NCBI GenBank assembly: GCA_001785355.1
Contig: MFTQ01000006.1
Span: 1 to 46,063, forward strand
DNA length: 46,063 bases
Source: Candidatus Nomurabacteria bacterium RIFCSPHIGHO2_01_FULL_41_71
Lineage (GTDB): Bacteria; Patescibacteriota; Minisyncoccia; Phycocordibacterales; UBA9973
Reading direction: 5' to 3'
The notes below the pieces were generated by a model. That model worked only from the letters and a program-made list of their open reading frames with translations, was not told where the DNA came from and searched no databases. Shown in pieces: positions 17,907-45,142 of the stretch (position 1 is the stretch's first letter; each line of letters starts with the position of its first letter). A program made the position numbers and the translations under genes.

Positions 17907-18146
17907 ATGGAACCGGAAAAAAAATCAAGAGGAGTAGTGTGGGTATTAATAGCTATAATAGTGATCATTCTGATTGTGAGTGGAATTTATATATCTCAAT
18001 CTGGTATAAAAAACATAGAATACGAATACACGCCAACCACAGAAACAGAAATTAAAAGTGAAGAGCTAAAAGAAATTGATGCATTGGAGGCGGATCTAAT
18101 GGAGGTTGATACTGAAACGGGTGTTGATATAAATGCAATATACTAA
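17907..18146 (+). CDS. Small single-pass membrane protein, unknown function
   Basis: VVWVLIAIIVIILIVSGIYI TM segment and acidic tail; overlaps the tig start. Confidence 0.65.
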   Translation: MEPEKKSRGVVWVLIAIIVIILIVSGIYISQSGIKNIEYEYTPTTETEIKSEELKEIDALEADLMEVDTETGVDINAIY

Positions 18147-19176
18147 CAAAAAGCTTCCAAAAAGCGAGATAAAAATAGAAGGAGAACTGGAGACTGATTT
18201 GTTTGAAACTTATTTCGGCAAAGCACTCCGAAAAATCGGCCAGACACTGGAACTAGATGGATTTAGAAAAGGTAAAATACCCGAGAATGTTATCCTTTCC
18301 AAAGTACCGGAAATCCGCATTCTGGAAGAAATGGCGGAGCTTGCCCTCTCTGAACACTATCCGAAAATAATCGAGTTGGAGAATTTGGATCCGATCGGGC
18401 GACCGGATATCGCGATTACAAAATTAGCGCGCAAGAATCCGCTTGGATTCAAGATCAAAGTAGTGGTAATGCCGGAGATAAAACTTCCCGATTATAAAAA
18501 AATTGCCAAGAAAATTGTGGACGATATCTCGCCCACCGAAAAAGAGACCGCGGTATCGGATGAAGAACTGGAAAACACTATTGTGGATATTAGAAAATCC
18601 AGAGCGCCTAAAAAACACATCACAAACCCCGATTTGGAGACGTCGGACGTCTCCAACTTGCCCGAATTCAACGACGAATTTGTAAAATCTCTTGGGTCAT
18701 TTACAGACATAGAAGACTTTAAGATTAAACTGCGAGAAAATATAAAACTGGAAAAACAAAATCAAGCAAAAGAAAAAACTCGGTTAAAAATAATTGAAGA
18801 AATAATAGAAAAGAGCGAACTCGAAGTGCCGGATATTTTGATCGAGATTGAACTCGACAAGATTTTATACCGGATGGAGTCCGACATCACCCAAATGGGA
18901 CTCCAATTTGAAGACTATTTAAAACACTTAACCAAAACAAAAGAAGACTTGAGAAAAGACTTCAGAAATGACGGCGAAAAGAAAGCCAAACTCACCTTAA
19001 TCCTAAACGAAATAGCCAAAGTGGAAAAAATAATAGCCGACGAAAAGCAAGTAGCGCGCGAAGTCGCCCAAATTCTAGAACACTATAAAGAAGCCGACCC
19101 CGATCGCGCCCGAGCGCATGCCGAAGAAGTCCTCACCAACGAAAAAATATTTCAGTTTTTGGAGAGTCAAACTTAA
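18133..19176 (+). CDS. tig: Trigger factor lacking the FKBP PPIase domain
   Basis: Ribosome-binding signature GFRKGKIPENVI; C-terminal arm LPEFNDEFVKSLGSFTDIEDFKIKLRENI; no PPIase segment between them. Confidence 0.88.
   Translation: MQYTNKKLPKSEIKIEGELETDLFETYFGKALRKIGQTLELDGFRKGKIPENVILSKVPEIRILEEMAELALSEHYPKIIELENLDPIGRPDIAITKLARKNPLGFKIKVVVMPEIKLPDYKKIAKKIVDDISPTEKETAVSDEELENTIVDIRKSRAPKKHITNPDLETSDVSNLPEFNDEFVKSLGSFTDIEDFKIKLRENIKLEKQNQAKEKTRLKIIEEIIEKSELEVPDILIEIELDKILYRMESDITQMGLQFEDYLKHLTKTKEDLRKDFRNDGEKKAKLTLILNEIAKVEKIIADEKQVAREVAQILEHYKEADPDRARAHAEEVLTNEKIFQFLESQT
18634..18656. repeat. Family B RAYT-type palindrome, in frame inside tig
   Basis: ttggagacgtc-g-gacgtctccaa; differs from 43408-43432 by a paired (compensatory) change tgtaga/tctaca to tggaga/tctcca. 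Confidence 0.8.
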
Positions 19177-26009: not shown

Positions 26010-26040
26010 ACTTGGACATCCGATGTCCAAGTGTTGTCCA
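26010..26040. repeat. Family A palindrome plus extra half-arm, 3' side of RAYT1
   Basis: acttggacatc-c-gatgtccaagt (26010-26032) followed by gttgtcca resembling the right arm. Confidence 0.85.
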
Positions 26041-26044
26041 GTGG

Positions 26045-26680
26045 TTAATTTTCTAATTCTTTTATCATTTCTTTTCTTAATTTAATATCTTCCAAAGATT
26101 CGACAACAAAATCCTTATATTCTTTTATATTTCTAAATTGTCCCAATATAATATCTGTATTGCAAAGTTTCTCACCTGAAAATTTTCCCAAAAACTCCGG
26201 TAGGCTTGATTTACTCAACTTGGACATCCGATGTCCAAGTTGATCATTTCCATTAATATAAGCACTAAGGTGAAGTAAATATTGGTTTGAATCAATATGT
26301 TTTGATTTAAACTTGCCTTGGAAAAGAACTCCGCTACGTTTGTGTTTATTATTAAAATATTTTGTATATCCATTACCCAACCTTTGCATGAATTTTTCAA
26401 TTCCCTTTTCTTGAATAGGTGTAATTAAAAAATGAAAATGATTTGGATTCAGGCAATAAACGATAAATTGCACAAGGGGTTTCTTTTTTTTATTGGCTTC
26501 TCTAGATTTTTTCTTAAAAGAAAATTCATATATGCTACCAATTGGTTCTGTTTGATTAAAATCAAATAAACTTTCCCAAAAACGGGACAAGTCTTGTTCG
26601 TCCATAAAGATATTTCTCTTGTCGGTTCCGCGATTATAAATATGATAATATTCTCCCACTGTAAATTTTACTTTTCTCAT
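26045..26680 (-). CDS. IS200-like / REP-associated tyrosine transposase (RAYT1, Y1 HUH)
   Basis: YYHIYNRGTDKRNIFMDEQD, YCLNPNHFHFLITP (HUH), LGNGYTKYFNNKHKRSGVLFQGKFKSKHI (Tyr motif). Confidence 0.93.
   Translation of the reverse strand: MRKVKFTVGEYYHIYNRGTDKRNIFMDEQDLSRFWESLFDFNQTEPIGSIYEFSFKKKSREANKKKKPLVQFIVYCLNPNHFHFLITPIQEKGIEKFMQRLGNGYTKYFNNKHKRSGVLFQGKFKSKHIDSNQYLLHLSAYINGNDQLGHRMSKLSKSSLPEFLGKFSGEKLCNTDIILGQFRNIKEYKDFVVESLEDIKLRKEMIKELEN
26215..26243. repeat. Family A palindrome inside the RAYT1 coding sequence
   Basis: tcaacttggacatc-c-gatgtccaagttga, 14-bp perfect arms; encodes QLGHRMSKL in frame. Confidence 0.9.
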
Positions 26681-26691
26681 GTCTTAATCAT

Positions 26692-26720
26692 AGCACTTGG
26701 ACATCGGATGTCTAAGTGCT
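26692..26720. repeat. Family A palindrome between RAYT1 and clpP promoters
   Basis: agcacttggacatc-g-gatgtctaagtgct, one mismatch in the arms. Confidence 0.88.
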
Positions 26721-41950: not shown

Positions 41951-41989
41951 TGTCTGTAGACGTCTGTCTGTAGACGTCCGACGTCTACA
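41951..41989. repeat. Family B palindrome with tandemly duplicated arm, 3' side of RAYT2
   Basis: tgtctgtagacgtc x2 (41951-41964, 41965-41978), palindrome tgtagacgtc-c-gacgtctaca (41969-41989). Confidence 0.9.
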
Positions 41990-41992
41990 AGA

Positions 41993-42691
41993 TCAATCAT
42001 CATTGAAATCAAAACTTGCTTCCTCTTTTTCATCGATTTTTAAAGATTTTTTACCTCTATTTTCTCGCACTATGTCAACCATCTCTATCCCGTGTTTGAA
42101 AAAATTTTTATAACCACCAAACCATTTTAAAAATTTGTTTCCCTCTTTGGGATTTATTAAATAAAAATTGCCTGTCCTATACTCTTCTTCGCTACTGCGT
42201 ACCAATTTTAATTTATTTTTGGAAATATTATGCACTTTATAATTCCACATCACATAGGCAAAAAGCATTTCAAAATAATTCTCTTTTTCGGCGTAATTTG
42301 ATTTAAATTTACCTTGAAGTAACGATCCGCTGCGATCATTTTTATCGTTAAAGTATCTCGTATACCCTCCTTGCAATCGTTTCATAAATTCGCTAATACC
42401 TTCGTCAATTTCTTGTTTCAAAATAAAATGAAAATGATTTGGATTAAGACAATATTCAACAAAAGAAACAAGCCGCTCTTTATTAGACACTTGTAGACGT
42501 CGGACGTCTACAAATTGTTTTTGCTCACGTAGAGCCAATTCCAAACTCCCCACAGCATCTTTATAGGCAAACAACTTCATGCATAATAAGAATCTTTCAA
42601 TATCTTTTTCGTTCATGAAAATATCACGCTTATCAACACCTCTATTGTAAATATGAAAATAAGAACCGGTAATGAAAGGATGTTTCCTCAT
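41993..42691 (-). CDS. IS200-like / REP-associated tyrosine transposase (RAYT2, Y1 HUH)
   Basis: YFHIYNRGVDKRDIFMNEKD, YCLNPNHFHFIL (HUH), LQGGYTRYFNDKNDRSGSLLQGKFKSNY. Confidence 0.93.
   Translation of the reverse strand: MRKHPFITGSYFHIYNRGVDKRDIFMNEKDIERFLLCMKLFAYKDAVGSLELALREQKQFVDVRRLQVSNKERLVSFVEYCLNPNHFHFILKQEIDEGISEFMKRLQGGYTRYFNDKNDRSGSLLQGKFKSNYAEKENYFEMLFAYVMWNYKVHNISKNKLKLVRSSEEEYRTGNFYLINPKEGNKFLKWFGGYKNFFKHGIEMVDIVRENRGKKSLKIDEKEEASFDFNDD
42491..42513. repeat. Family B palindrome inside the RAYT2 coding sequence
   Basis: ttgtagacgtc-g-gacgtctacaa, in frame, encodes FVDVRRLQ. Confidence 0.9.
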
Positions 42692-42705
42692 GCGGAAAGT
42701 ATATC

Positions 42706-42730
42706 ATTGTAGACGTCCGACGTCTACAAT
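42706..42730. repeat. Family B palindrome at the RAYT2 promoter
   Basis: attgtagacgtc-c-gacgtctacaat, 2 nt from the RAYT2 -10. Confidence 0.9.
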
Positions 42731-43407: not shown

Positions 43408-43432
43408 ATTGTAGACGTCGGACGTCTACAAT
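43408..43432. repeat. Solo intergenic family B palindrome
   Basis: attgtagacgtc-g-gacgtctacaat. Confidence 0.9.
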
Positions 43433-43447
43433 TTAGTGTAAAAATCT

Positions 43448-45142
43448 ATGAAAAAAATCTGCAAAAATTGTAAAAAGGATTTTGAGGTACGAAAAGAGGA
43501 TCTGATTTTCTATGACCAAATAAAAGTTCCGCCGCCCCTTATGTGTCCGGACTGCCGGATGCAGAGACGTATATCTTTTCGAAACGAACGCACGCTCTAC
43601 CGCCGACCGTGCGACAAATGCGGGAAAAATGGAATTTCCCTTTATGCTTCGGGCACACTTTTTCCTGTCTACTGCCATACTTGTTGGTGGGGCGACAGTT
43701 GGAACCCGACGAGCTACGGAATGAAATACGATCCGGCCCGGCCGTTCATGGGACAGTTCGCGGAACTAAAAAACAAAGTACCGAGAGTAAGGCTCCTCTC
43801 CATCAATAGTATTAACTCGGAGTATGAAAATAATTCTTCGGAAAACAAGAATTGTTATCTGATTTTTGCCGCCGAAAATAACGAAGACTGTCTATATGGT
43901 CGGCTAGTACAGCACTGCAAAAATTCCATGGACTGCGCTTTTCTCTATGACTCGGAGCTCTGCTACGAATGCGTGGACACTCGCAAGAGTTTTAAGTGTC
44001 TCTACGGCGAGCGTTTGCAGGAATGTGTGGATACTTTTTTTTCTTTCGACATGCGTAATTGCCAAAATTGTATTTTTTGCGTCAATGGACGAAATTTAAG
44101 ATACCAAATTTACAATAGATCTTGTACCAAGGAAGAATTCAAAAAGAAAAAAGCGGAAATTTTCAAAGATTACGCTTCCATCGAAAAAGCCAAAGAAGAA
44201 TTCAATCGCCTGCGCTCCGGGGCGCTGGTTAAATACGCTTTCGCCACTAAGTGCGTAAACGCCACCGGAGACTATATGTATAATTGCCATGACGGCGCGC
44301 GGATTTTTGATGTTTCAAACGCAAAAAATTGCTCCTATGTCGCGGATGCGGAGGACCCGATCGATTGCCAGGACGTGAATAACCACTATTTTAAGGGCGA
44401 ACGCTGTTACAACGTAATGGGCGCGCTTCAAGATACGAACTGCATCGGAATAATTTTCAGTTTCTATTGCAACAACGTGTATTATTCGGACTCTTGCCGC
44501 AATTGCTCGGACTGTTTCGGCTGTGTTGCGCTCAATAATAAGAAATATTGCATCTTGAATAAAGAGTACCCAAAAGAGGAGTATGAAAAAATAAAAAACG
44601 AGATTACGGAGGAGATGAAAAGAATCGGGATTTACGGTGAATACTTCCCCGCCGAGCTCTCTCCCTATCCTTACAACGACACACTAGCGCAAGAATATTT
44701 CCCGATGACGGAAAAAGAGGCTAAAGAAAAAGGTTTCAACTGGCAGACGGAGACGAGTGGCACTTACGGTAAGGAAACAATAAAAGAAGAAAACATGCCG
44801 GAGACTGCAGAAGAAGTGAATGAAGAAATTTTAAAAGAAATTTTGGTTTGTAAAGATTGTAAAAAGAATTTCCGCATTACGAAATCCGAATTGGATTTCT
44901 ATAAAAGAATGAATATTCCCCCACCCCGCAAAGATTTTGAATGCCGGCACCAGGATCGCATGAAAAAAAGAAATCCGCGCAAACTCTGGCATCGCGCTTG
45001 CATGTGTAAAAAAACCAACCATCCCCATCACTTGGACATCGAATGTCCAAGTGGATGTCCAAACAAGTTCGAAACCTCATACAGAGACGACCGTCCGGAA
45101 ATGGTGTATTGCGAACAATGCTATCAGCAGGAAATTTCTTAA
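43448..45142 (+). CDS. Cys-rich protein with N- and C-terminal zinc-ribbon modules, unknown function
   Basis: CKNCKKDFEVRKEDLIFYDQIKVPPPLMCPDCRMQRR; central array of Cys-containing repeats (NCYLIF.., DCLYG.., NCSDCFGC..); C-terminal CEQCYQQEI. Confidence 0.85.
   Translation: MKKICKNCKKDFEVRKEDLIFYDQIKVPPPLMCPDCRMQRRISFRNERTLYRRPCDKCGKNGISLYASGTLFPVYCHTCWWGDSWNPTSYGMKYDPARPFMGQFAELKNKVPRVRLLSINSINSEYENNSSENKNCYLIFAAENNEDCLYGRLVQHCKNSMDCAFLYDSELCYECVDTRKSFKCLYGERLQECVDTFFSFDMRNCQNCIFCVNGRNLRYQIYNRSCTKEEFKKKKAEIFKDYASIEKAKEEFNRLRSGALVKYAFATKCVNATGDYMYNCHDGARIFDVSNAKNCSYVADAEDPIDCQDVNNHYFKGERCYNVMGALQDTNCIGIIFSFYCNNVYYSDSCRNCSDCFGCVALNNKKYCILNKEYPKEEYEKIKNEITEEMKRIGIYGEYFPAELSPYPYNDTLAQEYFPMTEKEAKEKGFNWQTETSGTYGKETIKEENMPETAEEVNEEILKEILVCKDCKKNFRITKSELDFYKRMNIPPPRKDFECRHQDRMKKRNPRKLWHRACMCKKTNHPHHLDIECPSGCPNKFETSYRDDRPEMVYCEQCYQQEIS
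45029..45060. repeat. Family A palindrome plus extra half-arm, in frame inside the Cys-rich protein gene
   Basis: cacttggacat-cga-atgtccaagtg (45029-45053) followed by gatgtccaaa half-copy. Confidence 0.82.

Follow-up and report, generated by a model that had tools for sequence, protein, structure and literature searches.

We analysed a 46,063-nt stretch of contig MFTQ01000006.1 from Candidatus Nomurabacteria bacterium RIFCSPHIGHO2_01_FULL_41_71 (hereafter the window), which carries RAYT2 (41993-42691, minus strand), a gene of 232 codons for a single-domain IS200-like (Y1_Tnp/HUH) transposase of the kind associated with repetitive extragenic palindromes (REPs), that is, a REP-associated transposase (RAYT). 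Copies of one palindrome flank RAYT2 on both sides, and another lies in frame within its coding sequence. Internal palindromes that match the flanks of their own gene, and occupy one or both of two fixed in-frame slots (I1 and I2), are a layout common to relatives across the phylum Patescibacteria, and the copies belonging to one RAYT locus evolve in concert. RAYT2 stands at a site that is uninterrupted in relatives, and comparison of the sequences makes it most likely that it was inserted there as a unit bounded by its palindromes.

The RAYT2 locus and its paralogue RAYT1

The palindromes of RAYT2, here called family B, are perfect or nearly perfect. The upstream (U) copy, an exact repeat (ATTGTAGACGTCCGACGTCTACAAT, 42706-42730), lies at the promoter end of the gene, while the downstream (D) copy (TGTAGACGTCCGACGTCTACA, 41969-41989; also listed as 41969-41990, TGTAGACGTCCGACGTCTACAA) lies just past the stop codon and is abutted by a 14-bp half-palindrome that a repeat search found twice in tandem (TGTCTGTAGACGTC, 41951-41978, plus strand). 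The internal copy (TTGTAGACGTCCGACGTCTACAA on the gene strand, 42491-42513, minus strand) fills slot I1 and encodes FVDVRRLQ in frame. An earlier, sequence-only reading of the window had placed these three copies correctly, down to the frame and peptide of the internal one; a fourth, absent from that reading, is a solo palindrome at 43410-43430, between a TMEM175-like gene and the next open reading frame (ORF), 0.7 kb from the U copy. Pattern searches of the whole 634-kb genome returned nine family-B matches (at most three mismatches) and none for the backward-pattern control. Directly downstream of the U copy and a few nucleotides from the ATG we read a -10-like hexamer, TATACT (42698-42703, minus strand), from whose position a short or leaderless 5' end is predicted for RAYT2.

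The protein matches Pfam Y1_Tnp (PF01797, E=2.6e-7, above the cut-off) and has the HUH motif as NHFH (residues 85-88) together with the invariant Tyr/Asn, the conserved Tyr being Tyr146, as in a Y1/HUH domain with a single catalytic Tyr. Its score against the NCBIfam model REP_Tyr_transpos (NF047646), 27.9 bits, is far under the 80-bit equivalog cut-off. The AlphaFold2 model (predicted local distance difference test, pLDDT, 89) has as its top match among solved folds 4er8 (E=5e-5), in which E. coli TnpAREP is in complex with a REP hairpin, and places the I1 copy in a loop of lower pLDDT (residues 57-74) that connects helix 49-56 to the HUH strand at 75-82.

RAYT1 (26045-26680, minus strand; PF01797, E=3e-8; AlphaFold2 pLDDT 91) has a palindrome family of its own, family A, with four matches across the genome. 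Three of its copies form the layout that the sequence-only reading had described, and this layout is real: a D copy (ACTTGGACATCCGATGTCCAAGT, 26010-26032), an internal copy (26218-26240, minus strand, encoding QLGHRMSKL) and a U copy with one mismatch (26695-26717). The internal position does differ between the two genes, being ahead of the HUH motif in RAYT2 (I1) and past the catalytic Tyr in RAYT1 (I2), where the model puts it in the loop after helix 132-148, which carries the conserved Tyr141. RAYT2 had also been called independent of RAYT1; this applies to the palindromes, which have diverged, and not to the genes, which are homologous paralogues (38% identity) with a common internal architecture. 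The 634-kb genome holds eleven or more RAYT genes (about a dozen), all of them different; several have a palindrome of their own, and in several none remains. A third RAYT (L010) shows the same three-copy arrangement with an unrelated palindrome. Viral carriage was considered and rejected, as a scan of viral contigs found no relative, and relatives on plasmids were limited to fragments at 22-30% identity.

Two slots and concerted change across Patescibacteria

The survey covered 147 genomes of the same family, which supplied 200 RAYT genes; named Patescibacteria genomes added 63 genes, and further families and classes within the phylum another 29. Palindromes upstream (U) and at the stop codon (D) are the rule among these genes, and they match each other in 101 of the 106 relatives in which both are present. 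Palindromes scoring at least 12 abound in RAYT loci, while about 250 kb of Markov-generated sequence contained none. When 136 genes with a matching flank pair were each scanned whole with their own flank sequence, 102 internal cognate copies were recovered, and all 102 lie in I1 or I2. Slot I1 is found at nt 150-215 from the ATG (about 187), ahead of the HUH strand, its end preceding the HUH motif by 10-26 residues; slot I2 is found about 180-240 nt before the stop codon (about 197), beginning 5-13 residues past the conserved Tyr motif. None of the 102 copies lies between HUH and Tyr, and the same is true of RAYT1 and RAYT2, whose AlphaFold2 models show both slots as surface loops of lower model confidence. 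Probing the genes with palindromes of other families gave no hit in 1247 gene-probe pairs, and the density of cognate palindromes within RAYT ORFs is about ten times that of neighbouring DNA. At the foot of the hairpin, where the REPs of REPtrons have a GT[AG]G tetranucleotide, family B contains TTGTAG, and other families begin with ACTTGG, CAGATAG and so on, without GTAG; the dispersed CAGATAG palindrome occurs in 0-13 copies per genome (backward-pattern control, zero).

About a dozen relatives (L236, L231, L230, L239, L280, L269, L283 and others) carry U, I1, I2 and D together, as does L364, in a genome outside the class of the window. Because both slots are filled in many relatives, the internal positions of RAYT1 and RAYT2 are slots belonging to a single common layout. 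On the tree, occupancy of the slots is clustered, with 47 changes for I1 (at least 61 when shuffled) and 16 for I2 (at least 22 when shuffled).

The internal copies follow their own flanks closely. Among family-set genes having both, the internal palindrome (nt 120-240) is cognate to the flank in 60 of 63, with a mean similarity to the gene's own flank of 0.961 against a best value of 0.592 in 5000 permutations; the 63 genes from named genomes replicate this (0.842 vs 0.616). Compared with the flank of the nearest relative, the gene's own flank was the better match to the internal copy in 41 cases, equal in 16 and worse in three. Close relatives carry different palindromes while the copies inside one locus stay alike, so that divergence within a locus (0.054) is lower than that of the same slot between genes 80-90% identical (0.149). 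Eight pairs of copies share the same arm imperfection. Where the internal copy differs among close relatives, arm positions have changed on both sides in 40 cases and on one side in 34, the pairs compared not being independent. Internal copies also disappear with the flanks: they are kept in one of 11 genes that have lost both flanks, compared with 45 of 70 (p=0.0007). In the RAYT2 clade, relatives that do not have the I1 palindrome keep the loop with decayed sequence and show no clean gap, so that I1 is lost by point mutation; a contrast of empty with filled I1 slots in this clade was for that reason set aside. That the copies of a gene change together, and do so at slots common to relatives, argues for an inherited design and not a coincidence.

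With these data the downstream, internal and promoter unit proposed by the sequence-only reading, cognate internal copy included, is strongly supported. That reading was to fall if internal copies proved rare or unrelated to the flanks, and the survey found the opposite on both counts.

Unit ends, insertion site and dispersed copies

A hexamer matching TATAAT at five of six positions is present in 147 of 178 U loci (92 when shuffled) and ends a median of 6 nt (interquartile range 6-8) before the ATG. As the U copy lies upstream of this -10-like hexamer, it would be outside the transcript. At the other end, D and the stop codon overlap in 86 of 176 genes, and 26 genes have the stop codon at the centre of the palindrome. 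The palindromes also coincide with the limits of homology between related loci. In pairs whose nucleotide homology does not extend into the neighbouring genes, the start of homology falls no more than 8 nt from the outer edge of U in 14 of 17, and its end comes equally near (within 8 nt) to that of D in 15 of 27. RAYT2 and its closest relative, L142 (84%), are a case in point, as their homology has its edges at the U and D copies, and neither xth nor a TMEM175-like gene is near L142. In L378 an xth orthologue (76%) is followed directly by the TMEM175-like gene with no RAYT between them, and five further relatives have a similarly short xth-TMEM175 junction, with xth homologues 38-46% identical. 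Palindromes that bound the homology, together with xth and TMEM175-like genes that adjoin without a RAYT in relatives, point to insertion of the RAYT2 unit at its present site. IS200/IS605 elements move as a unit bounded by their hairpin ends, and RAYT2 conforms to this in its homology edges, differing neighbours and uninterrupted sites.

At the xth-TMEM175 junction of L389 (genome G111, which does not have RAYT2), near 1435-1460, there is a solo ACTTGGT...ACCAAGT palindrome that may be a target or a scar. Truncated RAYT2-like matches (L196, in G071:C32; G091:C6:26869-27315; G051:C53:4-477) start near the I1 slot, which is how they would look after loss of the U-to-I1 segment; one of them is at a contig edge.

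Solo cognate palindromes dispersed elsewhere are few, and several lie in frame in other genes. A family-B variant (TGGAGACGTCGGACGTCTCCA, 18635-18655, plus strand) is in frame in a hypervariable linker of the trigger-factor gene (18133-19176), and a family-A copy (45030-45052, plus strand) is in frame, as HLDIECPS, in ORF 43448-45142, whose orthologues do not have these residues. Outside the window, pyrF of the same genome (L042 1282-1302, in ORF 800-1615; G000:C20:21481-21501) contains an in-frame family-B palindrome encoding IVDVGRLQ that is absent from orthologues. The corresponding loop of pyrF in G093 (L332) is occupied by a different palindrome, CTTGTCGACCTCGCAGGTCGACAAG, which suggests that this loop is a hot spot for palindrome insertion. 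The trigger-factor linker (window 18600-18700, L292-L305) is hypervariable in the genus, with repeat-like in-frame inserts in several species. ORF 43448-45142 encodes a cysteine-rich, zinc-ribbon-like protein without a Pfam match, which has six matches in its own genome and up to 26 in close relatives, and is confined to this genus among the 41 genomes searched. REPIN-like pairs were considered and rejected, as the dispersed family-B copies of the genome are mostly single; at L043 1269-1308 (G000:C21:4668-4707), two family-B palindromes are fused head to head with a 2-nt overlap.

Interpretation and comparison with known systems

We give slightly better than even chances to the reading that RAYT2 is a mobile unit of Patescibacteria whose palindromes are recognised by its enzyme and homogenised in cis, and whose promoter and internal copies are sites of self-control, a reading that is in part inferred. 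RAYT2 would then be a single-gene, single-strand-DNA mobile unit, an element like IS200 or a REPtron. Its ends would be the outer palindromes, U within the promoter and D by the stop codon, and additional in-frame copies of that palindrome occupy either or both of the fixed surface-loop slots. The RAYT protein would recognise each copy as a hairpin, those within its own coding sequence included; cutting and joining by the enzyme (hairpin exchange), preferentially in cis, together with selection for recognition, would keep the copies alike; and the promoter and internal copies would serve as cis sites of self-control at which the protein may bind or cleave its own gene. Control of this kind would fit what is seen in this genome, where many different RAYTs each occur as one copy. 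A wider version, in which the unit is phylum-wide and internal cognate hairpins, kept in step with the ends by hairpin exchange, let the element recognise, repress or cut itself, so that each family is held at one copy and many families coexist, is a speculation that we consider rather doubtful.

Several observations weigh against the favoured reading. It is common for a RAYT to have no internal copy (51 of 136 genes). The idea that the I1 palindrome is conserved far beyond the remainder of the gene was rejected, since its conservation is not clearly higher, which speaks against simple purifying selection on a fixed sequence as the explanation. No rule was found in the centre orientation of the U, internal and D copies, which is close to random (U vs D: 53 inverted, 44 direct and four symmetric, a call that depends on few asymmetric centre bases). 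Homology edges at the palindromes could come in part from fast divergence of intergenic DNA, and in-frame cognate palindromes in unrelated genes indicate that in-frame occupancy needs no function.

The last point belongs to the main rival, which is not far behind, and to which we attach considerable weight while holding it less probable than not: REP palindromes would insert at any position, but within RAYT genes they would persist only in the two loops able to accommodate about eight additional residues; their nearness to the enzyme, acting in cis, would keep them cognate and homogenised, and the internal copies would have no role. The copies in pyrF, trigger factor and ORF 43448 fit this account, as do the different palindrome in the same pyrF loop of G093 and the nature of both slots as surface loops modelled with lower confidence, and the literature reads TnpAREP subclass 2.4 (PMC6006769) and other REP-tagged genes (PMC3733652) in this way. 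It is harder to reconcile with the use of just two slots in 136 genes, other loops having none, with the near absence of non-cognate occupants in the family set, given that one genome may contain about a dozen RAYTs whose palindromes differ, and with the joint loss of internal copies and flanks. Whether the internal copies are self-control sites or tolerated passengers, their role, like any regulatory function of the unit, is something we infer.

The remaining explanations fare much worse. The palindrome-encoded loop might itself be a specificity loop that reads the palindrome, so that site and reader change together; in relatives the two slots do share a reading frame and an almost identical peptide (KLGSSTPKS twice in L239), and the loops adjoin the HUH strand and the end of the Tyr helix. 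The peptides are, however, unrelated between families (FVDVRRLQ, QIAPKALS, QLGGKTSKL), many genes with both flanks do not have them, and published TnpAREP-REP contacts involve beta1, helix alpha3, the region around beta4 and the C-terminal tail (PMC8266576), all of which leaves a function of the peptide very improbable. Similarly little credit is due to the claim of the sequence-only reading that the layouts are convergent rather than inherited, two three-copy arrangements having arisen independently under selection for a downstream, internal and promoter unit. RAYT1 and RAYT2 do differ in palindrome and internal position, in keeping with this, but the loci that hold all four copies, the clustering of occupancy on the tree and the decayed remnants kept by near relatives without an intact I1 largely refute it, and I1 and I2 emerge as two conserved slots of one layout. 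Chance or an assembly artefact is practically negligible: we found no point in its support, and the empty Markov sequence, the empty backward-pattern controls and the replication in independent genomes all speak against it.

These loci bear on two open questions, namely the way in which REPs spread and the reasons for the persistence of RAYTs. They offer a natural series of more than 100 genes with a palindrome built into fixed coding positions and changing in concert with the ends, which makes RAYT-REP coevolution measurable within single loci and supplies ready enzyme-site pairs for binding tests. As far as we found in the main texts of the open-access literature, the position of two fixed slots beyond the HUH-Y interval, the presence of a four-copy layout across Patescibacteria, the concerted evolution within loci and the movement as a unit are apparently new, though earlier sightings are possible.

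One close counterpart is TnpAREP subclass 2.4 (group 4 of Bertels; Cyanobacteria, Bacteroidetes and other phyla), in which REPs flank the gene and also sit inside it in frame, mostly between the HUH and Tyr motifs (PMC6006769). Its REPs are of a 'double-foot' type (GTRG...CYAC), to which family B, reading TTGTAGAC...GTCTACAA, may be compared, and an 8-residue insertion reported where helix alphaB ends is a possible equivalent of slot I1 (PMC6006769). In Patescibacteria, by contrast, both slots are outside the HUH-Y interval, GTAG is missing from most families studied here, and each genome has few copies (0-13). The main text of that report describes neither fixed slots, nor a four-copy layout, nor concerted evolution within loci (PMC6006769). 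In-frame palindromic insertions in coding genes, like those in pyrF and trigger factor, are known as intragenic REPs and as the palindromic elements of Rickettsia (PMC3733652), from which the RAYT copies differ in their fixed slots and in tracking the flanks of their own gene.

Single-gene IS200/IS605 elements such as IS608 and ISDra2 share with RAYT2 a Y1 transposase, hairpins near the ends and movement as a unit, which for RAYT2 is deduced from sequence comparison; the ends of the RAYT unit differ in being near-perfect palindromes that are alike and have copies inside the gene. Coevolution of RAYTs and REPs and paired flanking REPs are established in the REPtrons of Proteobacteria (a rayt with REPs or bacterial interspersed mosaic elements), where an HUH/Y1 transposase likewise lies between two cognate palindromes (PMC2817692). 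There, the two REPs at the flanks invariably have inverted orientation and REP copies abound (PMC2817692), whereas in Patescibacteria the orientation of U and D is near random and the genome holds nine family-B and four family-A matches. REPtrons are generally stated not to move as a unit, and RAYT2-type units, which appear to change place whole, would be an exception to this statement.
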